In this document: one piece after another, positions 21,885 through 34,656 of the stretch | How positions within the stretch are numbered: the stretch's first letter is position 1 | How the letters are laid out: each line of letters starts with the position of its first letter | Source: Thermomicrobiales bacterium | GTDB taxonomy: Bacteria; Chloroflexota; Chloroflexia; Thermomicrobiales; UBA6265 | Length of the DNA stretch: 40,182 bases | Reading direction: 5' to 3' | Assembly: GCA_020432165.1 (NCBI GenBank) | Contig: JAGQGU010000059.1 | Location: 1 to 40,182 of the forward strand | The notes under the pieces: model-generated | The model's input: only the letters and a program-made list of their open reading frames with translations | What the model was told of the DNA's origin: nothing | The model's database searches: none | Made by a program: the position numbers and the translations under genes

Positions 21885-23249
21885 CTACATTCCCGCGAAG
21901 TCACCTTCGTCGTTCATACGCTTTACCACGGTCTCGAAGGCGGTCAGCGTGTTCGCCACATCCTCATCGGTGTGACGTGTGCAGGTGAGGCCACCGCCAT
22001 GGAAAAGGTGGACGCCTTCCAACAGCATGCCGATCTCGCTCTTCATACCCAGCTTGGTGCCACCGCTGCTCTTCAGGAATTCTGGTGTGACACCTTGCGG
22101 TCGGGTGAGATCGCCACTCGTCATATTCGTGATCCGGGAACCGAAGGCGATATGGAATACGCTGCTTTCTCCCCAGGCGAAACCGGGGATGTCGTGGCGT
22201 ACCAGAATCTCGTTGAATCCTGCGCGAATCTGCGCCGCGATATTGTCACAATATGCCTGTACGGCCGGATCGGCGCACTTCTCTACCGCCTTCGTGCCAG
22301 CGGCAGCAGCCAGCGGATTGGCATTGTAGGTCCCCATATGCGGCACCTTCTTCGCCTGCACGGCGGGATCATCGGAGAATGCGACCACATTCATCACATC
22401 GGCCCGACCGCTCACAGCACCGCCCGGCATACCACCGGCCACGATCTTGGCCATAGTGGTCATATCCGGTGTCACGCCGAAGCGTTCCTGGGCTCCACCT
22501 GGTGCCCAGCGGAAGCCGGTGATGACCTCATCGAAGATCAGCAGGGCGTCATATTTGGTTGTGAGATCACGCACACCCTGCAGGAACTCCTCAATCAGCG
22601 GAATACTGGTCCAGCTACCGCCGCTCGGCTCCATGATCACTGCAGCGATATCGCCCTGAACCAGGCGTTCTTCGAGCATGGCGAGCTCGTTCGATGGCAA
22701 CACCGCCACCGTGGTGAGACTCTCGCTGGGTACACCGTTAACGGTCGTTTTCTCGAAGGGCGGCTTCTCGCCCTTGAGCGCGTAATCCTGCCAGCCGTGG
22801 AAGTGTCCCTCGAACTTGAGGATGCCATTCTTACCGGTCGCGCCGCGGGCGATACGCATTGCCAGCAGTGTGCTCTCGGTACCGGAGCCAGTGAAGCGGG
22901 TGAGTTCCGCACTGGGCACGATCTTGTTGATCGCCTCGGCCCAACGGACTTCCGCCTCGTGACCGGCACTATGATGGGTGCCTCGCGGGACCTGATTCAC
23001 CATGGCGGCGGTTAGATCGGGATCATTGTGGCCAAAGATCAGCGATCCGTGACCGACGCAGAAATCGATGAGTTTGTGCCCCTCGATACTCCACTTATAG
23101 GCGCCATCGGCTTTGGCCATATAGGGCGGGAAGGGCTTAATGTGCCGACCATCGTGGGTGATACCCCCAACAATCGCCTTGCGCGATCGCTCCCACATCT
23201 CGTTGCTGGCCGCATACTGATCGAAATACTGCTCGTTAATCGAAGCCAT
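21885..23249 (-). CDS. Class III PLP aminotransferase, glutamate-1-semialdehyde aminomutase-like paralogue
   Basis: 454 aa. PLP-fold landmarks: GSGTES (121-126), FHGW (150-153), FDEVITGFR with Asp240, and the likely Schiff-base Lys268 in MAKIVAGG. It resembles HemL in the N-terminal half, but a true hemL is encoded at 24807. This copy differs in the region around the active site (GHFHGWQDYA against YHGHADMLL), so a different substrate is likely. Start ATG at 23249 has an AGGGGA ribosome site, and a good promoter is at 23294-23322. It is followed by the alcohol dehydrogenase and is divergent from hemA. I give no gene symbol because the substrate is open. Confidence 0.88.
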   Translation of the reverse strand: MASINEQYFDQYAASNEMWERSRKAIVGGITHDGRHIKPFPPYMAKADGAYKWSIEGHKLIDFCVGHGSLIFGHNDPDLTAAMVNQVPRGTHHSAGHEAEVRWAEAINKIVPSAELTRFTGSGTESTLLAMRIARGATGKNGILKFEGHFHGWQDYALKGEKPPFEKTTVNGVPSESLTTVAVLPSNELAMLEERLVQGDIAAVIMEPSGGSWTSIPLIEEFLQGVRDLTTKYDALLIFDEVITGFRWAPGGAQERFGVTPDMTTMAKIVAGGMPGGAVSGRADVMNVVAFSDDPAVQAKKVPHMGTYNANPLAAAAGTKAVEKCADPAVQAYCDNIAAQIRAGFNEILVRHDIPGFAWGESSVFHIAFGSRITNMTSGDLTRPQGVTPEFLKSSGGTKLGMKSEIGMLLEGVHLFHGGGLTCTRHTDEDVANTLTAFETVVKRMNDEGDFAGM

Positions 23250-24806: not shown

Positions 24807-26096
24807 ATGTCCCTCGATCTAAGTCAATCTCGATCCGCCTTCGAGTCCGCCAAATCCGTCATTCCCGGGGGCGTCAATTCTCCCGTTCGTGCCTTCCGTT
24901 CGGTTGGGGGATCACCCGTCTTTATCGACCATGGTACCGGAAGCACCATCACTGATATCGATGGCAATACCTACATCGATTACGTGCTTAGCTGGGGACC
25001 ACTCATTCTCGGACATGCTCATCCGGAAGTGATCGCGCGCACGATTGCTGCCATGCAGAAAGGCACCAGTTTTGGTGCTCCGACGCTGGCGGAGACTCAA
25101 CTCGCCAGACTGATCGTGGATGCGGTACCGGGTATCGATATGGTCCGGCTGGTCAATAGCGGTACCGAGGCCACCATGAGTGCGCTTCGGCTTGCCCGGG
25201 CTGCGACTGGTCGTAACAAGATCCTCAAATTCGCGGGTTGCTATCACGGGCATGCCGATATGCTGCTTGTACAGGCGGGCAGTGGTGTCGCCACGCTTGG
25301 GTTGCCCGATTCGCCGGGTGTCCCGGCTGGTGCCACCCAGGATACGCTTGTAGCGCCCTATAACGATCTGGACGCTGTGCGCGCGATCTTCGCCGAGCAG
25401 GGCGAACAGATCGCGGCGGTCATTGTGGAGCCTGTTGCAGGCAACATGGGCATGGTACCGCCGGTGGGGGGCTTCCTGGCCGGTCTGCGAGAGGTCACGC
25501 AGAATAGTGGCTCACTCCTTATCTTCGATGAAGTGATGACCGGTTTCCGTGTCTCCCCAAATGGCGCGGTTGGACTCTACGGCATCCAGCCCGATCTCGT
25601 CACCTTCGGCAAGGTCGTTGGTGGTGGTTTCCCGCTGGCTGCTTACGGTGGTCGTGCCGATATCATGCAGCACGTCGCACCGTCTGGCACGATGTATCAG
25701 GCCGGGACATTGAGTGGTAATCCGGTGGCAACCGCAGCGGGTATCGCGACTCTGGAGTTGCTGGCCGAAGAGGGTGTTTGGCAGGGCATTTCTGCGCAGA
25801 CCGCGCGACTGGTGGATGGTCTCAACGCGGCAGCAGATGCCCGCGAGATCGCTTTCAACGCGCAGGCTGTCGGTACCATGTTCGGCTTCTTCTTCACCGA
25901 TCAACCGGTCCGCAATTACGAGGATGCCAAAACGGCCGATGCGGAACGTTTCGTGCATTTCTTCGCAGGTATGTTGGAGCGCGGCATTTACCTGGCCCCA
26001 TCGGCCTATGAGAGCGGTTTCCTCAGCAGTGCCCATAGCGACGCGGATATTGATCGCACGATTGCCGCGGCGGATGAGGTGTTTGCAACCCTGTAG
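24807..26096 (+). CDS. hemL: Glutamate-1-semialdehyde 2,1-aminomutase
   Basis: 429 aa, ATG preceded by AGGAG. The protein is a class III PLP enzyme with all HemL landmarks: IPGGVNSPVRAF (19-30), NSGTEATMSA (117-126), YHGHADMLLVQAGSG (146-160), DEVMTGFR (241-248) and the PLP-binding Lys269 in FGKVVGGGFP. HemL converts glutamate-1-semialdehyde to 5-aminolevulinate. It lies directly behind hemA on the same strand. Length and conservation are normal, in contrast to the paralogue at 21885-23249. Confidence 0.96.
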   Translation: MSLDLSQSRSAFESAKSVIPGGVNSPVRAFRSVGGSPVFIDHGTGSTITDIDGNTYIDYVLSWGPLILGHAHPEVIARTIAAMQKGTSFGAPTLAETQLARLIVDAVPGIDMVRLVNSGTEATMSALRLARAATGRNKILKFAGCYHGHADMLLVQAGSGVATLGLPDSPGVPAGATQDTLVAPYNDLDAVRAIFAEQGEQIAAVIVEPVAGNMGMVPPVGGFLAGLREVTQNSGSLLIFDEVMTGFRVSPNGAVGLYGIQPDLVTFGKVVGGGFPLAAYGGRADIMQHVAPSGTMYQAGTLSGNPVATAAGIATLELLAEEGVWQGISAQTARLVDGLNAAADAREIAFNAQAVGTMFGFFFTDQPVRNYEDAKTADAERFVHFFAGMLERGIYLAPSAYESGFLSSAHSDADIDRTIAAADEVFATL

Positions 26097-26115
26097 AGCT
26101 GCATGTGATATGCAC

Positions 26116-26136
26116 CACCGCATTGCACATGCGGTG
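26116..26136. terminator. Hairpin in the convergent gap between hemL and the EEP gene
   Basis: Eight-base arms CACCGCAT/ATGCGGTG enclose a 5-nt loop, filling half of the 40-bp gap between two convergent stops. On the plus strand it is followed by CTATATATCT, not a clear U-tract. It probably limits read-through in both directions. Confidence 0.5.
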
Positions 26137-26949
26137 CTATATATCTGCGGCTCTCACCACCACCGGGAAATGATCGCTCGGCACTGGTTGCTGGCGGTGC
26201 GTATGCACTGTCTCAACCGTGACAGCGGGTAACGATTCGCCATCGGCGGGTCTTACGCACACCCAATCGATGCGATTCTCCTGATCGATCGAGCTGACGC
26301 GACTATCGTCCCAAAGATCCCAATCGGGAAAGGTAAAGTGCGGCCCCAACTCTTGCTGTGCGAAGCTCCACATATCCGTGAATCCGAGCGCGTTCAGGTG
26401 CTGCATCGGCTCGCGGTGTCGACCGATATTGAAATCGCCCGAGATGATGGTCTCGATCTCAGGATTGATGAGCGGAGCAATCTGCTCTACCAGCACAGCC
26501 ATTTGCGCGGGTATCTGTGGCTCGATATAGGTGAGATGGGTGTTGATATAGAGGAGTGGTGTGTCATGCACTGTCATGCGCACCCAGCTGGCTACCCGCG
26601 GAAGATCTTCGTTGGGCATGCGTGAGCCCTTTACCTCCGGGGTTGGACTCAGCCAGAAGGTGCCAGACTCGGTGACATTACAGACACGTCGATCAACGAA
26701 GATAGCGGCATACTCGCCACCCCACGCCGGATCGCGACCTTCGCCATACATGTCGTAATGCTGAAGTTCATCGCGTAGATAGGCGAGTTGATACTCGTAA
26801 CCTTCCTGCGTCCCGAAGAAGGTTGGCTGCTGCTCCCGAATCGTATCGACGAGCGCCTGCTTTCGTTGTTCCCAATGCGGGAGATCACCGCCATTCTTGA
26901 GGTTGTAGGTCATTACACGCGTGTTGGGATGATCGAAAACGGATGGCAT
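26137..26949 (-). CDS. Endonuclease/exonuclease/phosphatase (EEP) family hydrolase
   Basis: 270 aa. Active-site landmarks of the DNase I-like fold are in order: MTYNLKNG with Asn16, GTQEG with the metal-binding Glu49, NTHLTY (His138), GDFNIG (171-176) and SDHFPV with the catalytic His260. These proteins cleave phosphodiesters in nucleic acids, inositol phosphates or phospholipids. No signal peptide is seen. Its position at the end of an operon with a lipid-linked glycosyltransferase and a flippase-like protein may hint at a phospholipid or sugar-phosphate substrate, but nuclease activity is equally possible. Confidence 0.88.
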   Translation of the reverse strand: MPSVFDHPNTRVMTYNLKNGGDLPHWEQRKQALVDTIREQQPTFFGTQEGYEYQLAYLRDELQHYDMYGEGRDPAWGGEYAAIFVDRRVCNVTESGTFWLSPTPEVKGSRMPNEDLPRVASWVRMTVHDTPLLYINTHLTYIEPQIPAQMAVLVEQIAPLINPEIETIISGDFNIGRHREPMQHLNALGFTDMWSFAQQELGPHFTFPDWDLWDDSRVSSIDQENRIDWVCVRPADGESLPAVTVETVHTHRQQPVPSDHFPVVVRAADI

Positions 26950-26970
26950 TACTGGACTCCAGGTCGTTGG

Positions 26971-27609
26971 CTACTTCCGTACCTTGCCCACGCAAATCGT
27001 CCAGGGCATCGAACCGGTAAGCAGCACGACATCCAACTCTTGGCCGACGAACGCGCCAAAATCGCTCTGACTCCAGAAATTGCGATGATCCGGATCGCTC
27101 CCCTTTGGCGTGATATCCAGATTCTTGCCGCGGGCCGCATTGGCGAGGCAGAAGAAAGGCTCATGCGGCACGCTGAGCACCACGTAGTCTTTGGCTACGC
27201 GAGCAATCTCCTTGAGCGCCTTGTCTGGCTCATAGAGATGCTCGAAGACCTCGAATGAAACCGCAACGTCGAACGAGTTATCAGCTTGTTTGATGTCGTA
27301 AATGCTGCCGACATCGAAGGTTGCTCGCGGATTCCGTCGGCGCGCCAGTTCCACGCTATCGGGGAGCACATCGAAGCCGGTGATGCTCAGCGCGGGAATC
27401 TCGGTGAGGAGTACTTCGTCAACAAAACCTTCGCCACAGCCGCAATCGAGCAGCGTCGTTGGATGCAAATCCTTGACGATACCGGCGATTTTTCCATGGA
27501 AGCGATTGATCAACGTCCGCTGAAGTTTGCTGGAGCTTGTGTGCTTGCGATAGTTGCTGGTATCGACAGACGTCTCCGGTTCGTAGCGAAATGTTTCGGA
27601 AATGCTCAT
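26971..27609 (-). CDS. Class I SAM-dependent methyltransferase
   Basis: 212 aa. Motif I is LLDCGCGEG (53-61), followed by the acidic residue of the second strand in ITGFDVLPDSVELARRR and motif IV-like SFDVAVSFEVFEHLYEP. It resembles UbiE/small-molecule methyltransferases. The start overlaps the flippase-like gene's stop by 4 nt (ATGA), and the EEP gene begins 21 nt downstream. It probably methylates a lipid, sugar or isoprenoid intermediate made by this operon; the acceptor is not predictable. Confidence 0.9.
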   Translation of the reverse strand: MSISETFRYEPETSVDTSNYRKHTSSSKLQRTLINRFHGKIAGIVKDLHPTTLLDCGCGEGFVDEVLLTEIPALSITGFDVLPDSVELARRRNPRATFDVGSIYDIKQADNSFDVAVSFEVFEHLYEPDKALKEIARVAKDYVVLSVPHEPFFCLANAARGKNLDITPKGSDPDHRNFWSQSDFGAFVGQELDVVLLTGSMPWTICVGKVRK

Positions 27610-28622
27610 GGAATGGACTCCTCTACAGATTCAGGATGCGGATGGCCGCCATCTCGTTTGGTCAGCCAGATACGGGTAATGCCATAAAGAATGGGGATCG
27701 CCAGGAAGAGTGCCATGCGATAGATGACTGCCGCTGCCACTACCTCTGCACCGGGTACTCCGGCCAACCGTGCGACAACATACATCATCGCCTCGCGCAC
27801 CACTGCGCCGCCCGGAATGGGACTCAACATACCGACCAGCATCGGCAAGGTGGTGAGGCCAAGAATGAGTTCAAAGGTTGTGTCCACTCCCATTGCATTC
27901 ACCAAAAGGGCCAGCACCACACCCTGAACGATCCAGTAGATAGTAGTGGACGCCAGGGCCAGGGCAGCCTCTCTCGGGCGCTGGAGCGGTGATACCAGAA
28001 TACGTCGGATGAAGTTGATGGCGCGGCGGCGCTGCTCCGCCTTCCGGAAGAAGAAGATCAGCAGCACAAGGACAACAGCAACGAGCAGGAGCGCGACTGA
28101 CTGATAGCGTGAGGCGTTATCCTCCAGTTCGCTGGCAACAGCGCTGGTGCTCCCCTGCGCCATGATCAGCCAGACGAGTGTGCCAAACCCCAGCACAATC
28201 ACGTCCATGCCGATTTCCCACAGCGCGACAACCCCGGTTGCATGTCCATCCAGCCCGAGGGCGCGTTTGGTCAGGGCCGCCCGGCTGGGAACCGCCAGCC
28301 CCACCGGGGCGGCATAGTTGATCACAATCGATGTCAGGAACGCTTCGGCGGCGCGGGGGAGATCGCTCCATCCTTGCGCCATTTGTACGAGCTGATGCCA
28401 ACGTACAGCCAGCAGCCAGAGACTGGCCACGTAGATCGGTGTCGCGATGAGGAGTTGGGTAGTGTTCGCCTCCCGTACCACCTCCCACAACTCGGCCAGC
28501 GCACCCTGCCACCACAGCAATAACGTCGCTGCGACAATGCAGATCGCGAAAATGAGAGGTGTCGGGATATTCAGGAGCTTCCGTAACCCGCCCTTTGCAT
28601 TGTCAGCGGAAGATTGGTTCAC
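27606..28622 (-). CDS. Flippase-like integral membrane protein (lysylphosphatidylglycerol synthase TM-region/UPF0104 family)
   Basis: 338 aa with about eight membrane helices (first IFAICIVAATLLLWW). Family hallmarks include a central VPSRAALTKRALG and the loop PIPGGAVVREAMM, the Pro-Gly-Gly motif typical of this family. There is no attached aminoacyl-transferase domain, so it is the stand-alone form often found next to polyprenyl-phosphate glycosyltransferases. It may move a lipid-linked sugar across the membrane. It overlaps both neighbours by 4 nt, in an operon with the GT2 enzyme and a methyltransferase. Confidence 0.88.
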   Translation of the reverse strand: MNQSSADNAKGGLRKLLNIPTPLIFAICIVAATLLLWWQGALAELWEVVREANTTQLLIATPIYVASLWLLAVRWHQLVQMAQGWSDLPRAAEAFLTSIVINYAAPVGLAVPSRAALTKRALGLDGHATGVVALWEIGMDVIVLGFGTLVWLIMAQGSTSAVASELEDNASRYQSVALLLVAVVLVLLIFFFRKAEQRRRAINFIRRILVSPLQRPREAALALASTTIYWIVQGVVLALLVNAMGVDTTFELILGLTTLPMLVGMLSPIPGGAVVREAMMYVVARLAGVPGAEVVAAAVIYRMALFLAIPILYGITRIWLTKRDGGHPHPESVEESIP

Positions 28623-29725
28623 GGGGTTGTTGTGGCCTCCGATGAGGTCAACTGTGGACGATTGCCGAGTCCGGTTGTCTCGCGTAATGGCATCAACTTA
28701 TCTGGTTGGGGGGCATTGTTGCCAAAGCTGAGATATTCGCCCAGCAGACCCAAACCGAAGAACTGCGTGCCAATTACCATCAGCAATACAGCCAGCATCA
28801 GCAATGGCCTGCTGCCAATGGCCTCGTGGTTGATGAATTTCTCAATCGCCAGCCAGAACCCGGCCAATCCACCCAGAGCCATGAAGACAATGCCAGGCAG
28901 CCCGAAGAGGTGCATTGGTCGTTGACGATACTGCGTCAGAAATACGACCGTGAGCAGATCCAGGAAGCCCTTCATCAGGCGTCCCCAGCCATACTTACTG
29001 CTCCCCCAGGTGCGGGGATGATGCTCAACAGGCAGTTCCGCAATCCGGAACCCCTCAGCGTTCGCCAGGACCGGGGTGAAGCGATGGAGTTCGCCATAGA
29101 GACGGATGCTCTGCGTCACCTCGCGTCGGTAGGCCTTGAATCCGCAATTGAAATCGTGCAGCTGTACACCCGTGCTCTTGCGCACGGTCCAGTTGAAGAT
29201 CTTGCTCGGGAACGTCTTGCCCAAAGGATCCTGGCGACGCTGCTTCCAACCGCTGACAAGATCGTAGCCCTCGTCGATTGTGGCGAGGAATCGGCTGATT
29301 TCCTTGGGATCGTCCTGAAGATCGCCATCCATGGTGATGATGAGATCACCGCGGGCAGCTGCGAAGCCATGACTTAGCCCTTGTGCCTTACCGAAGTTGC
29401 GGCGATGGCGAAGCCCGATCACACGATTGTCGCGGGTGTTGAGATCCTGGATGATCTCCCAGCTACGATCGCTGGATCCATCGTCCACAAACAATACCTC
29501 GAATGGCAGATGTGTGGCTTCCAGTTCGGGTATCAGCGCATCGTAAAGATCAGGGAGGTTGCCCTCTTCATTCATGATCGGAATGAGCACGGTCAGAGAT
29601 CGGAGCGGATCCTGATGGATATCCGCAACCAATCGCGGCACCGTCGCGAACGATACCGTTTGTGGAGGCAATGGCTGGATTGCTGTTTGCACCATGATGA
29701 TGTCGACTCCAACGCTGGTACGCAT
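28619..29725 (-). CDS. Family 2 glycosyltransferase with C-terminal membrane helices (DPMS/GtrB-like)
   Basis: 368 aa from ATG at 29725 (GGGAAG 6 nt upstream). The GT-A catalytic part has LTVLIPIMNEEGN (44-56), the nucleotide-binding DDGS (81-84) and the metal-binding DGDLQDDP (133-140). Two membrane helices follow at about 280-345. This layout matches polyprenyl-phosphate glycosyltransferases (dolichol-phosphate mannose synthase, GtrB, ArnC). It most likely makes a lipid-linked sugar on the inner face of the membrane for the flippase-like protein encoded next to it. The sugar is unknown. Confidence 0.93.
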   Translation of the reverse strand: MRTSVGVDIIMVQTAIQPLPPQTVSFATVPRLVADIHQDPLRSLTVLIPIMNEEGNLPDLYDALIPELEATHLPFEVLFVDDGSSDRSWEIIQDLNTRDNRVIGLRHRRNFGKAQGLSHGFAAARGDLIITMDGDLQDDPKEISRFLATIDEGYDLVSGWKQRRQDPLGKTFPSKIFNWTVRKSTGVQLHDFNCGFKAYRREVTQSIRLYGELHRFTPVLANAEGFRIAELPVEHHPRTWGSSKYGWGRLMKGFLDLLTVVFLTQYRQRPMHLFGLPGIVFMALGGLAGFWLAIEKFINHEAIGSRPLLMLAVLLMVIGTQFFGLGLLGEYLSFGNNAPQPDKLMPLRETTGLGNRPQLTSSEATTTP

Positions 29726-29783
29726 GCAAGTCTTCCCTGCATCGGCCCTGACTATACGTCTGCAAGCCGTTCAGGCGCAAACA

Positions 29784-30584
29784 TTACTCACCTGTAGGGG
29801 TCGATTCCTTCGTTGCTGGCTCATCACCATTCACCGTGCGATTCGGAGTAACGGTGAGTTCTTCTGTGCCATCGTTGCGGGCAACATAGATTTGCTTGTA
29901 GCTCCCGATCTCTTCCGGGAAGGTGACCGTTTGCATTGCTGCACCCGATTCGGCCACGATCAGGTCATCGACCTTCCATTTGTTATCGTCGCTATCCACG
30001 CACCAGATTTCATGGGTTGTGCTGGGATCGAGATTCCAGGCCATGACTGTTCCATCTTTGGCATCCAGATCAGCACCGATATGGCCAGCCGATGTGGAAT
30101 CGCTTGACGACATCGCGTAGACCTGAAAATCCTGACCGACTGTTGTGCGTGAGGTATTGTCCGATGGCAGGAGTGTCCATAACCCAATGACGGCCAGCGC
30201 GACGCAGAGTCCGGAGACGAAAGTGGAGATCGTCCAGAGTGGCCGCCCTGGTGCAAAACGGGCTTGTTTGCGTTGTTCCGGTTTACGGGGCGAGGGGATG
30301 GAGACGTGCTCCTCCCCTTGTGCGGTCAGGAATCGATGCTGCAGCTTCGCCTTCAGATCGTCAGAAGGAGATTCCAGAGGGATGGTGAGCGGCAGAAGCT
30401 GTACGGCATTATCCAGACGCGTAAGCTCGGCACGGCAGATCGAGCAACGGGTCAGATGGTACTCGAAGCGCTCGCGATCGTCGCACTCCAGAATGCCCAG
30501 AGCGGCCTCTTCCATATGCTCGGCGCAGAAGAGACAGTCCTCGGCATCAATATCAGATTGGTTGTGGATGATGTCGTCGTTCAT
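29784..30584 (-). CDS. Zinc-finger anti-sigma factor, RskA-like
   Basis: 266 aa. The N-terminal anti-sigma domain has His43-X3-Cys47-X2-Cys50 in YHLTRCSICRAEL, the ZAS-type zinc motif. A single membrane helix lies near residues 116-139 (LWTISTFVSGLCVALAVIGLW). The C-terminal part (about 145-255) is extracytoplasmic and resembles the anti-sigma-K RskA domain (HIGADLDAKDGTVMAW). The protein would hold the ECF sigma factor at the membrane until a signal releases it. The start overlaps the sigma gene stop as ATGA, a classic coupled pair. Confidence 0.92.
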   Translation of the reverse strand: MNDDIIHNQSDIDAEDCLFCAEHMEEAALGILECDDRERFEYHLTRCSICRAELTRLDNAVQLLPLTIPLESPSDDLKAKLQHRFLTAQGEEHVSIPSPRKPEQRKQARFAPGRPLWTISTFVSGLCVALAVIGLWTLLPSDNTSRTTVGQDFQVYAMSSSDSTSAGHIGADLDAKDGTVMAWNLDPSTTHEIWCVDSDDNKWKVDDLIVAESGAAMQTVTFPEEIGSYKQIYVARNDGTEELTVTPNRTVNGDEPATKESTPTGE

Positions 30585-31213
30585 AGTTCATCCAGTGACT
30601 GGAGTTCAGCAGAATCCTGTAGTTTCCGTAGACCCAGTCGCATGCGGGTCTTGATCGTTCCCAAAGGTACATTGAGTGCGTCTGAAATCTCGCGTTGGGT
30701 TAGACCACGGAAATAGGCGAGTTCCAGAACCTCTTGTTGCGGCAGTGGAAGTTCCTCCAACGCATTTCGTACGCGTTCGCCGCGATCGCTCAGAATTGCA
30801 TGTGTCTCCAAACTTGGACGCTCGTCTCGCAGCGTTGCCATAAACTCGATCTGGTCCTCGGTGTGCTGCTTCTGCGGTCGTCGTTGCTGCTTGCGTAGTT
30901 CATCGATAGCCATATTGTGTGTGATGCTTAGCAACCAACTAATCAGGCTCCCGCGCGCATCCGTGAAGCGATTTGCTCGCCGCCATGCGCGTAGATAGAC
31001 CTCCTGCAGCAACTCCTCCGCCTGCTCGCGATCTCCCAGCATTCGCAGCGCAAATGAATAGACCGGCCGATGATAGCGATCATAGAGAAGCTCCATGGCA
31101 TCGGGATGACCATTGGCCAACTCGACCATGAGATCGGCGTCCGAGGCCTCCGCCGAGAGCGGAGCGTATGGTGAAGGTTGCTGGCTACTCACGTTCCGCT
31201 TGCCAGAAGCCAC
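30581..31213 (-). CDS. ECF-family RNA polymerase sigma factor (SigK/RpoE-like)
   Basis: 210 aa. Region 2 includes ELLYDRYHRPVYSFALRML and AEELLQEVYLRAWRRANRF. Region 4 ends with EVLELAYFRGLTQREISDALNVPLGTIKTRMRLG, split here as a promoter -35-binding helix-turn-helix. The start is GTG at 31213 without a visible ribosome site; a second GTG at 31192 is possible. It is paired with its anti-sigma factor and sits just upstream of envelope-type genes. Its promoter and regulon are not evident from the window. Confidence 0.92.
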   Translation of the reverse strand: MASGKRNVSSQQPSPYAPLSAEASDADLMVELANGHPDAMELLYDRYHRPVYSFALRMLGDREQAEELLQEVYLRAWRRANRFTDARGSLISWLLSITHNMAIDELRKQQRRPQKQHTEDQIEFMATLRDERPSLETHAILSDRGERVRNALEELPLPQQEVLELAYFRGLTQREISDALNVPLGTIKTRMRLGLRKLQDSAELQSLDEL

Positions 31214-31273
31214 CGGACGTAACCGATCTGCTTGGGTATACGCGGGGGTGAGATTGTCGGATGCATGGAATTC

Positions 31274-32914
31274 TCACGTCCAGGGCCAATCGTTATGCAA
31301 ATCACCGAACCAGCGCACGACTTCTCTGCCATTCTCACCATCAAATGTACTGACGATTTGATGCATGCCATCCAGATCAGGATCACTTTCTGGCCAATCG
31401 GAGCGAATATGCCCGCCCCGGCTCTCCTCGCGATCCAGTGCCGAGAGAATGACCTGTTTGCTCACCAGCCGCATATTGCGTGTGATCATCGCCATTCGGT
31501 CGCGCGATAGCGGTAAGTCCGGCGTGGCGTCGACGAACGCCAACGCTTTCAGCATATCTTCCCGGTTACGTACCACGCCAACCCATTCGGTCATACGGCG
31601 GCGGCAATTCTTCTGCGTTTCGATTGTATCGCCGACTTCCACCATCTCCTGTTCCAGCCGTTCTTCCGGAGTTCCGAAAGGCAATAACCCCACTGTATCG
31701 AGTGTATCGGCGGCATTGATGCCGAAGACCAGTCCTTCAAGCAGGCTATTGCTGGCCAGGCGATTGGCGCCGTGCACGCCGGTGCAGGCGACCTCTCCAA
31801 TTGCGAGCAGTCCGGATTTGGATGTTCGCCCCTGAGCATCGGCGATGACCCCACCCATGTAGTAGTGCGCCGCGGGGGCGACCGGAATCAACTCCGTAGC
31901 CATGGATACACCCGCATCCGCCAACATCTGCTCGATAGTCGGGAAGCGATGGTGAATGAGTTCAGGATCCAGATGGCGAAGATCAAGATAGACCAAATTG
32001 CCTGGTTGATTAAGTTGATCCTGAATCGCGCCAGCCACCACATTGCGGGGGGCAAGTTCGGCGCGGGGATCGATGGCGAGCATGAAGCGCTCACCCGCCG
32101 AGTTGACCAGATGGGCACCCTCACCGCGAACTGCTTCGGAGATGAGGAAGGGTGCGACATCGGCTTTGCGTAACACTGTGGGATGGAACTGCACAAACTC
32201 GAGATCGGCCAGATCGACGCCCGCCCGCAACGCCATGGCAACACCATCGGCGGTCGCTTCCTTCGGATTGCTGGTGATATTCCAGAGTCGTCCGGCGCCG
32301 CCATTGGCGAGCACGGTCGTGCGCGCAAGCATGCGTTCGACACGACCATCCTCCAGGAGCACGATCACGCCACCAATGCTATCGTCCGTATTGAGCACCA
32401 GATCGATAGCGAGACAGTTCTCGACAATGCGCGTGTTCTTGCGCTTACGTAGTCGCTCCACCAGTGCGCGCTCGATTTCGGCGCCGGTGGCATCACCGCC
32501 AGCATGCAGAATACGGCGGCGACTATGGGCCGCCTCGTGCCCCAGCTGCAGGGTATTACCATCCAGATCGAAGCGAGCACCCTGGCGGAGAAGCCAGCGC
32601 ACAGCACTGGCCCCGCGATCAACCAGACCGGTGGCAGTTTCTCTATCAGTCAAACCTGCACCGGCATCGATCGTGTCGGCCAGATGGAGTTCAGCGCTAT
32701 CCTCCGGACCGATCGCCGCGGCCATACCGCCTTGGGCGTATTTCGTATTGCTTTCGCCAAGAGCACTCTTGGTCAGCACCGTGATCGAGATATCGTCGTT
32801 TGTGCGCAAGGCAAAGCTGAGTCCGGCAATGCCAGCGCCAACCACCACGATATCCTGGCTGCTTTCTGTATCGCAGGTGCGAAGTCGGGTCGATTCGTTA
32901 TGAGAGAGAGTCAT
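31274..32914 (-). CDS. nadB: L-aspartate oxidase
   Basis: 546 aa. The FAD-binding motif VVVGAGIAG is at 23-31, followed by the family signature SNTKYAQGGMAAA (55-67). The active-site region HEAAHSRRRILHAGGDATG and the C-terminal helical domain (RRRMTEWVGVVRNREDM) fit NadB rather than the related succinate dehydrogenase flavoprotein. NadB oxidises L-aspartate to iminoaspartate for NAD synthesis. nadA and nadC are not in the window. The start overlaps the adenine deaminase stop by 4 nt, so they are translated from one message. Confidence 0.93.
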   Translation of the reverse strand: MTLSHNESTRLRTCDTESSQDIVVVGAGIAGLSFALRTNDDISITVLTKSALGESNTKYAQGGMAAAIGPEDSAELHLADTIDAGAGLTDRETATGLVDRGASAVRWLLRQGARFDLDGNTLQLGHEAAHSRRRILHAGGDATGAEIERALVERLRKRKNTRIVENCLAIDLVLNTDDSIGGVIVLLEDGRVERMLARTTVLANGGAGRLWNITSNPKEATADGVAMALRAGVDLADLEFVQFHPTVLRKADVAPFLISEAVRGEGAHLVNSAGERFMLAIDPRAELAPRNVVAGAIQDQLNQPGNLVYLDLRHLDPELIHHRFPTIEQMLADAGVSMATELIPVAPAAHYYMGGVIADAQGRTSKSGLLAIGEVACTGVHGANRLASNSLLEGLVFGINAADTLDTVGLLPFGTPEERLEQEMVEVGDTIETQKNCRRRMTEWVGVVRNREDMLKALAFVDATPDLPLSRDRMAMITRNMRLVSKQVILSALDREESRGGHIRSDWPESDPDLDGMHQIVSTFDGENGREVVRWFGDLHNDWPWT

Positions 32915-34656
32915 GCATCATTCTCGTTGGTGAGATCGAGCAAGCCGCGATCAGTCAGGCGTGCCTCGGGAATCACAGACAGGCTTAGGAAGGCGAGCGT
33001 GCCGAAAGGATCGTGCAGGGTGGAGCCGAGCCTCTGCACCTCCTTGCGCATAGCATCGTACGCGGAAGCAACGTTCGGCAATGGTTCGTCTGTCATCAAT
33101 CCGGCAATTGGCAGCGAAATATGAGCAAGAACCTCGCCATCGGCCACGACGGCCAATCCGCCCTGGGACTCCGCCACAATCGCTATTGCTGCCAGAATGT
33201 CCTCATCGCTCACACCCACAGCAATGATGTTGTGAGCGTCGTGCGCGATTGTGCTGGCGATAGCTCCACGTTTCAAGCCAAAGCCGCGGGTGAAACCGAC
33301 ACCGACTCGCCCGGTGGCATGATGGCGTTCAACCGAGACGGTCTTAAGGAGATCATTGGCGGAATCGCTAACTGCACGATCACCATCGACGGCGGGAGTG
33401 ATATGGATCAGTTTCGTCACGATTTGACCGGGGATAATTTCGATACCCCTGGTAACGTTCGCCGCGTCGATCTGCAGCTGCGATCGTCGGACCGGCGCAA
33501 GGTGGATCGTTTGCAGGAGCTCCAGTGGTACCGGTGATTCCGGTAACTCGGTGGTGAGTTGCCCATTCTCCGCCACGACGCGCCCATGGAAGAGCGTCTG
33601 CTTTACTCGAACTTCTTCGAGGCTGTCCAGAATCACCAGATTGGCTTCATAGCCGGGTGCGATGGCACCGATCTTCTCCAGCTGCCAGTACTGTGCTGCA
33701 TTCCAGGTTGCCATGCGAATCGCCCGGATCGGGTCGAGTCCGCCTGCAATGGCGAGGCGGAGGATATCGTCCACATGACCGACCTCGGCCAAATCGTGGC
33801 AGTCGCGATCATCCGAGGCGAAGCAGATGCGGGGATAGGTATGATCGGAGACCAGTGGCAGGAGTTCGTGGAGATTCTTCTCACTTGAACCCTCCCGAAT
33901 CATGATCATCAGGCCATTGCGCAGCTTGTCTCGCGCTTCATCCAACGTCACGGATTCGTGATCGGAATCGATGCCCGCTGCGATATAGGCAGTCAGCGGA
34001 CTTCCGGCCATCATCGGGCTGTGGCCATCGATACGATGATGGCGTGCGGCGGCGAAGATATCGGCGATATTCTGGTCCCCGGCAAGTACTGCCGGGACAT
34101 TCATCATCTCCCCGAGCCCCACCGTTTCGGGCCAGGTCAGCATTTCTTCGATATCGGTGATCGGCCATTCTGCCCCCGGACTCTCATGCTGACTCGCAGG
34201 CACGCAGCTTGGCACCGTGAACCGAACGTGCAGAGGCAGACCTTCTGCTGCGGACCGCATTGCGCGGATACCGTCGAGTCCGGCGACGTTGGCCATCTCG
34301 TGCGGATCGGTAACGATCAATCCGGTGCCGTGCGGCACTACTGCCTCGGCGAAGCGTGGCATCCACAGGAGACTTGCCTCGGTGTGGATATGCGCATCAA
34401 TGAACGATGGTGCGATGATCTCCCCATTCAGGACGATCTCTGTGCGAGCAAGGGGGAATTTGCCGATACCGACAATACGGCCGGTATCAATCGCGACGTC
34501 TGCTTCGATAAGCTCCTCGGTGAAGACATTTAGTACGCGGCCACCGCGGATCACCAGTTCCGCTTCATATAATCCTTGTGCGACAGCAATGCGGCGACGC
34601 CATTGCCATTTCCACATATTGGTAAGCGCCTGATCGGGCGTGAGATCCTCTGCCAT
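32911..34656 (-). CDS. ade: Adenine deaminase
   Basis: 581 aa. The amidohydrolase metal site DAHIHTEASLL places His89 and His91, followed by DPHEMANVAG, characteristic of Ade. Later features include GHSPMM, the HESV segment and SDDRDCHDL, and a C-terminal domain beginning near HGRVVAENGQ. The enzyme hydrolyses adenine to hypoxanthine and ammonia using two metal ions. The N-terminus has about 30 extra residues (from MAEDLTPDQ) before the usual beta-sandwich start, seen also in some relatives. It is coupled to nadB and preceded by a small unknown gene. Confidence 0.94.
   Translation of the reverse strand: MAEDLTPDQALTNMWKWQWRRRIAVAQGLYEAELVIRGGRVLNVFTEELIEADVAIDTGRIVGIGKFPLARTEIVLNGEIIAPSFIDAHIHTEASLLWMPRFAEAVVPHGTGLIVTDPHEMANVAGLDGIRAMRSAAEGLPLHVRFTVPSCVPASQHESPGAEWPITDIEEMLTWPETVGLGEMMNVPAVLAGDQNIADIFAAARHHRIDGHSPMMAGSPLTAYIAAGIDSDHESVTLDEARDKLRNGLMIMIREGSSEKNLHELLPLVSDHTYPRICFASDDRDCHDLAEVGHVDDILRLAIAGGLDPIRAIRMATWNAAQYWQLEKIGAIAPGYEANLVILDSLEEVRVKQTLFHGRVVAENGQLTTELPESPVPLELLQTIHLAPVRRSQLQIDAANVTRGIEIIPGQIVTKLIHITPAVDGDRAVSDSANDLLKTVSVERHHATGRVGVGFTRGFGLKRGAIASTIAHDAHNIIAVGVSDEDILAAIAIVAESQGGLAVVADGEVLAHISLPIAGLMTDEPLPNVASAYDAMRKEVQRLGSTLHDPFGTLAFLSLSVIPEARLTDRGLLDLTNENDA

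Follow-up and report, generated by a model that had tools for sequence, protein, structure and literature searches.

Six genes on the minus strand of contig JAGQGU010000059.1 from a Thermomicrobiales bacterium encode an extracytoplasmic function (ECF) sigma factor, a membrane anti-sigma factor, a family 2 glycosyltransferase (GT2), a flippase-like membrane protein, a methyltransferase, and an EEP phosphoesterase. The whole contig of 40,182 nucleotides, hereafter called the window, was analyzed (contig C55 of a 3.2 Mb genome that is 98% complete). Our results suggest that the row is probably composed of two adjacent transcription units rather than one sigma-driven operon. The first unit would be a sigma/anti-sigma switch resembling SigK/RskA, in which an envelope signal frees the sigma factor to activate its own putative promoter, [A/G]CATCC-N16/17-CGTATA. 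The second would start at a promoter of its own, TTGCG[C/T]-N17/18-TATAGTC, with a housekeeping-type -10 element and an unusual but conserved -35 element. This reading corrects the operon model that gene spacing alone suggests, and it provides two testable promoter sequences, one of which is a candidate ECF promoter motif found throughout the order Thermomicrobiales. The parts are known, and their arrangement is modestly new.

The putative GT2 promoter lies wholly within the 58-nucleotide gap between the anti-sigma and GT2 genes (29751-29780). The pattern TTGYR-N16..20-TATAGT is present upstream of GT2 in 19 of 27 family loci, and is absent from every one of 300 dinucleotide shuffles. One additional locus, that of genome G010, was left out because its GT2 gene is cut at the start. 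Among the 19 sites, TTGCG is present in 18 and is followed by C or T, the spacer is 17 (nine sites) or 18 (ten sites) nucleotides, and a C follows TATAGT in 18, which yields the refined motif given above. The ECF motif occurs in none of the 27 GT2 upstream regions, and TATAGT occurs in none of 14 sigma upstream regions. The original prediction held that the sigma factor directly controls the glycosylation genes. Given the separate GT2 motif, the lack of an ECF motif at GT2, and a sigma gene that is often unlinked, such direct control is not supported. Instead, an independent GT2 promoter is predicted in silico, including in genomes where the sigma gene lies elsewhere.

The pattern TTGAC-N17..19-TATART is enriched in six genomes (56 matches versus 15 for the reversed control), which indicates that the -10 element at GT2 is of the housekeeping kind, while the TTGCG -35 element is local. 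A housekeeping-type -10 element joined to a -35 element that is neither consensus nor enriched most likely represents an independent putative promoter, and its probable reader is the housekeeping sigma factor. We also considered TTGCG-TATAGT as the signature of a genome-wide regulon, and rejected this possibility because the pattern is not enriched over its reversed control.

The sigma gene is preceded by a different motif. When CGTA was required at a spacing of N16/17 and near forms of [A/G]CATCC were allowed, the motif is found upstream of 36 of 39 orthologues, whether linked to GT2 or not, compared with a mean of 0.3 and a maximum of 3 in mononucleotide shuffles. The three misses are loci L093, L153, and L164. 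A strict test covered 14 sigma loci and the wide test covered these plus 25 fetched later, and the near forms were admitted after inspection of the added loci. In the form [A/G]CATCC-N16/17-CGTAT, this ECF-type motif is conserved order-wide before one orthologous sigma gene. Thus, the search for an autoregulated ECF promoter that had been proposed for this locus yielded a candidate sequence. A tight version of the motif has a single match in the source genome (G000), located before the sigma gene itself. Across eight genomes the tight version has 23 matches versus 5 for the reversed control, and in seven of the eight it is found at the sigma factor's own promoter. Other tight matches are mostly inside open reading frames (ORFs); two, L236 and L241, both in genome G033, precede plausible gene starts, which appear from their sequences to be DtxR-like and DnaA-like genes. 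A looser pattern gave 80 matches in three genomes of the genus (G000, G001, and G003), nearly all within long ORFs. When 79 of these were inspected, leaving aside the one in the window, the only intergenic matches besides the sigma factor's own were L126 and L209, each confined to a single genome. We therefore detected no sigma regulon beyond the gene itself, since the loose matches are mostly within ORFs and the tight matches elsewhere are mostly within ORFs or limited to one genome.

The distribution of the genes was examined in 61 genomes (the source genome and others from its genus, family, and order). GT2 relatives (<= about 1e-100) are present in 28 of 32 family genomes, and G013, G018, G023, and G025 carry no GT2 of this type. 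Linkage was counted over the 28 GT2-bearing family genomes, with G010, G014, and G017 set aside because their contigs end too close. A sigma gene is located upstream of GT2 on the same strand in 14 of the 25 resolvable genomes, and is not found there in the other 11. On the GT2 tree this linkage label requires two changes, versus a mean of 8.5 after shuffling. Ten of the unlinked genomes constitute one well-supported GT2 clade, which also contains one of the genomes set aside, and G022 represents a separate change. Sigma relatives (<=1e-49) occur order-wide: most of the 61 genomes have one, and many carry it on a contig other than that of GT2. In other families the sigma orthologues lie apart from GT2; for example, G045 carries the sigma gene on C2 and GT2 on C1. 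In unlinked genomes, unrelated genes follow the sigma/anti-sigma pair. Examples, named by reading the starts of their sequences, are a Lon-like gene and, on the opposite strand, an aminopeptidase-like gene. Therefore, the proposed linkage is only partly conserved.

Within family genomes, the flippase-like and methyltransferase genes normally follow GT2 in the same direction. The full order from sigma to EEP, whose conservation had been proposed as a check, recurs in three of the four genus genomes (G000, G001, and G003), and the contig of the fourth (G002) breaks inside GT2. At the family level the sigma-GT2 portion of this order holds in 14 of the 25 resolvable genomes. All six genes show signs of purifying selection, with ratios of nonsynonymous to synonymous change (pN/pS) of 0.12-0.52 among the three genus genomes that display the locus; these values are rough because synonymous divergence is saturated. 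Together with recurrence of the gene order in G001 and G003, this selection indicates that the locus is more than a chance assembly. The six gene calls and their order thus agree with the original prediction on the basis of ORFs (26137-31213), domain matches, and recurrence in the genus.

Measured spacing also agrees with that prediction, which described 4-nucleotide overlaps or gaps of at most 58 nucleotides. There are 4-nucleotide overlaps at the sigma/anti-sigma, GT2/flippase, and flippase/methyltransferase junctions, and a gap of 21 nucleotides between the methyltransferase and EEP genes in addition to the 58 nucleotides before GT2. This compact spacing is compatible with a single sigma-controlled operon, in which the CATCC-CGTATA promoter drives all genes from sigma through EEP and an envelope signal induces lipid-sugar assembly. 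The retention of linkage in more than half of the resolvable genomes, with so few changes on the tree, points in the same direction. Furthermore, csbB and yfhO of Bacillus subtilis are described in PMC8035078 as being controlled by sigma-B and sigma-X, which provides a precedent for control of this kind of GT2 by a sigma factor. We nonetheless regard a single operon as unlikely because a conserved promoter-like site is located directly before GT2, the ECF motif is missing from every GT2 upstream region, the GT2-flippase-methyltransferase unit exists without a linked sigma gene in 11 family genomes, and the sigma gene exists without GT2 across the order.

Several observations weigh against the two-unit model. 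Linkage is phylogenetically persistent, as selection for coupling would also yield. The strict GT2 motif is more common in linked genomes (14/14) than in unlinked genomes (3/11, or 5/11 when only TATAGT is required), and therefore the motif is not independent of linkage. Of the remaining unlinked GT2 upstream regions, four have CATACT or CATAAT in roughly the same position, and two lack any such element. The TTGCG element differs from the sigma-A consensus, and TTGCG-TATAGT is not enriched in the source genome (2 matches versus 4 for the reversed control). A generic scan of positions 26000-33000 gave no sigma-70 promoters, versus 3.8 expected in shuffles, and is uninformative. Both motifs were first scored on the very data from which they had been defined. 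Finally, a generic scan of the minus strand detected no terminator-like site in the interval from the anti-sigma gene to GT2, so that read-through is physically possible. Transcription of the first unit may thus extend into the second and raise its expression under stress, and coupling of sigma to GT2 by this route is possible.

Table 1. Coordinates of the six genes, the putative promoter elements, and protein X. Positions refer to the window except for protein X.
Feature	Position	Strand	Basis
Putative autoregulated ECF promoter of sigma, -35 (GCATCC)	31259..31264	-	Motif at 36/39 orthologues
Putative autoregulated ECF promoter of sigma, -10 (CGTATA)	31237..31242	-	Motif conservation and genome scan
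ECF sigma factor, SigK-like, 210 aa, GTG start	30581..31213	-	Pfam Sigma70_r2/r4_2; SigK 4nqw 3.6e-28
Membrane anti-sigma factor, 266 aa, HX3CX2C and one transmembrane segment	29784..30584	-	NCBIfam antisigma 4.1e-14; motif, hydropathy
Putative independent GT2 promoter, -35 (TTGCGC)	29775..29780	-	TTGYR-N16..20-TATAGT in 19/27 GT2 upstream regions
Putative GT2 promoter, -10 (TATAGT), 25 nucleotides before GT2 ATG	29751..29756	-	Motif conservation
GT2 polyprenyl-phosphate glycosyltransferase, ArnC/CsbB/GtrB type	28619..29725	-	PF00535; ArnC structures 9bhc/8vxh to 2.9e-56
Flippase-like membrane protein with the MprF flippase-domain fold (LPG_synthase_TM family)	27606..28622	-	PF03706 8.9e-31; Foldseek
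Class I S-adenosylmethionine-dependent methyltransferase	26971..27609	-	PF08241 1.3e-18
EEP metal-dependent phosphoesterase, 270 aa, genus-specific operon member	26137..26949	-	PF03372 2.5e-9; 3mpr, 4c1r
Protein X, zinc ribbon and PQQ propeller	L079:10713-12341		Same place in 17 further family genomes

The sigma protein has matches to PF04542 and PF08281 above Pfam cut-offs, with Sigma70_r2 at residues 42-111 and r4_2 at residues 145-197. It holds regions 2 and 4 only, as ECF sigma factors require. Its closest solved relative, the best of 24 solved matches, is Mycobacterium tuberculosis SigK (4nqw), and the PRK09646 SigK model is its second-best match of the NCBIfam type, although below that model's cut-off. 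The anti-sigma protein has no Pfam match, and its score with an NCBIfam anti-sigma model falls below the model cut-off. It carries the HX3CX2C motif of a class I (zinc) anti-sigma factor at residues 43-50, and its proposed location in the membrane is borne out by a single predicted transmembrane segment at residues 121-139, as judged from hydropathy. The same motif and a hydrophobic segment are present in all nine anti-sigma relatives tested.

These characteristics resemble those of the SigK/RskA (ECF19-like) system, as outlined in PMC7509140 and PMC7406223. The shared features include the affinity of the sigma factor to SigK and a membrane anti-sigma gene that overlaps the sigma gene by 4 nucleotides; autoregulation is predicted from the promoter motif. 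However, M. tuberculosis RskA is described in PMC7406223 as not depending on the zinc motif, whereas the anti-sigma protein of this locus retains it. In addition, the sigma factor of this locus, unlike SigK, has no detectable regulon beyond its own promoter. A literature search found no paper pairing Thermomicrobiales with an ECF sigma factor.

The GT2 protein matches PF00535 above the Pfam cut-off and has a GT-A domain, invariant DxD residues D133/D135, and two C-terminal transmembrane helices. Its nearest solved relatives are ArnC, then cyanobacterial sll0501 and dolichol-phosphate mannose synthase. Given these relatives and the C-terminal transmembrane segments, the enzyme should load a sugar onto polyprenyl phosphate. 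However, it is not ArnC or PgfS proper because it misses the NCBIfam equivalog cut-offs (NF007986 ArnC at 1.6e-58, 198 bits versus 529; PgfS at 153 versus 500 bits). Among the best 80 of 590 confirmed GT2 loci in a scan of named genomes, two are from Thermomicrobiales.

The Pfam matches of the flippase-like protein, the methyltransferase, and EEP (PF03706, PF08241, and PF03372) likewise exceed the cut-offs. The flippase-like protein has no match to solved structures when its profile is searched by sequence, but a fold search did match. Using a model with a mean predicted local distance difference test score (pLDDT) of 80.8, the four top Foldseek matches are all MprF (best 1.6e-4, TMq about 0.5). 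This protein would move the GT2 product across the membrane, and the methyltransferase probably methylates the sugar or the acceptor. Gene identities therefore favor the surface-glycan theme that had been proposed for the locus; the envelope of Thermomicrobium is treated in PMC2615216. Similar to three-component transmembrane glycosylation systems such as CsbB-GtcA-YfhO, which comprise a GT2, a flippase, and a GT-C transferase, the locus combines a GT2 of the ArnC/CsbB/GtrB group carrying two C-terminal transmembrane segments with a flippase-like protein. It differs from them in that the flippase has an MprF fold (PF03706) rather than being of the GtrA type, the methyltransferase is a fixed member of the unit, and no PF09586 match was found in G000, G001, or G003, where other GT-C families were not searched.

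In sister families the methyltransferase gene is also located behind GT2, and in one of these families a weakly YfhO-like gene (PF09586, below cut-off) lies ahead of it. These neighbors fit an extracytoplasmic glycosylation system. The YfhO-like gene codes for a large membrane protein and overlaps the start of GT2 (L108:5043-7352 and L109:906-3332), and its product is a candidate final sugar transferase.

The EEP hydrolase was noted in the original prediction as an unexpected member of the locus, and its distribution bears this out. Among the 61 genomes, EEP proteins with 70-80% identity are found only in G000, G001, and G003, always after the methyltransferase, and the best match in G002 has 25% identity. 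Across the wider phylum, a match at 1e-15 is present in 19 of 400 genomes (the source genome included), and the best other match has 33% identity. In 18 other family genomes, the position after the methyltransferase is occupied by protein X, which carries a zinc ribbon and a PQQ propeller (PF13360) and is about 540 amino acids long. In G013 and G031 there is sequence after the methyltransferase but no recognized X. The source genome has no close relative of X (best 2.3e-6); in this genus, therefore, EEP occupies the slot that X fills elsewhere. In G003 there are two slightly different EEP copies, at L074:1-648 and L075:4676-5470, each beside a methyltransferase sequence and at contig ends; these reflect a duplication or else a mixture of two strains in the assembly.

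The structural model of EEP (pLDDT 87) most closely matches the folds of 3mpr, 4c1r (the mannosyl-6-phosphatase Bt3783), 3g6s, and 3l1w, followed by TDP2, and identity to the 3mpr/4c1r group is 25-27% over the fold. As in the Bt3783 group, the predicted active-site positions are kept, namely the N/E, NTH, GDFN, and SDH motifs, which we take to be the active-site motifs of EEP proteins. Unlike that group, this EEP is found in a polyprenyl-sugar operon. It also has no transmembrane or signal segment; a cytosolic location is therefore probable, where the enzyme would have access to the lipid-linked sugar of the inner leaflet. Thus, it is plausible from these features that the enzyme hydrolyzes a sugar-phosphate or a polyprenyl-phospho-sugar, most likely a phosphosugar or the lipid-linked sugar made by this locus. 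A literature search gave nothing relevant on EEP proteins acting on undecaprenyl phosphate (UndP) or on the mannosyl-6-phosphatase.

The location of EEP with a polyprenyl-phosphate-sugar synthase and a flippase, downstream of an ECF pair, raises an additional scenario relevant to carrier-lipid homeostasis. The pair would sense envelope or carrier-lipid stress, and EEP made by read-through would cleave the polyprenyl-phosphate-sugar to release the carrier. The predicted cytosolic location and the mannosyl-6-phosphatase among its solved fold relatives are consistent with such a role. There is also a precedent in B. subtilis, where PMC11081497 describes SigM as responding to the level of carrier lipid, and PMC11898649 describes SigM as inducing UshA and UpsH, which free UndP. 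In the latter source, Roney and Rudner predict that other envelope-stress regulons contain analogous hydrolases; UndP sequestration is reviewed in PMC12826051. Both settings would include an ECF system and a cytosolic hydrolase beside enzymes for lipid-linked sugars.

However, we consider this scenario improbable. EEP is confined to one genus, with the PQQ-propeller protein in the same place in most of the family, there is no sigma promoter at GT2, and just 21 nucleotides precede EEP. UshA has an alpha-beta hydrolase fold and UpsH is a metallophosphoesterase of COG1408, whereas the listed fold matches of EEP are all EEP-fold, so that it could be an analogue at most. Both its regulation by the sigma factor and its substrate are putative. 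The specific proposal that read-through co-induces the GT2 unit together with a carrier-recycling EEP, which would make this Chloroflexota locus a third, unrelated solution to the problem that SigM solves through UshA and UpsH, is slightly more remote still. If EEP does hydrolyze lipid-linked sugars, it would represent a new fold for carrier-lipid recycling.

Upstream of the sigma gene is nadB, which is on the same strand and ends 60 nucleotides before it. Thus, the sigma gene can be regarded as first in the row only when its own putative promoter is taken into account. The nadB gene is retained upstream of sigma in many linked genomes, and we know of no tie between it and glycolipids. Because such a gene shares the linkage, co-location provides little evidence of a common function. 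An Rfam search gave no match. Upstream of nadB there is a further long ORF, which is adenine-deaminase-like by reading of its sequence. On the other flank, hemL is convergent toward EEP. A 454-amino-acid ORF at 21885-23249 on the minus strand of the window adjoins hemA and hemL, and its translation reads as a class-III aminotransferase-like protein.

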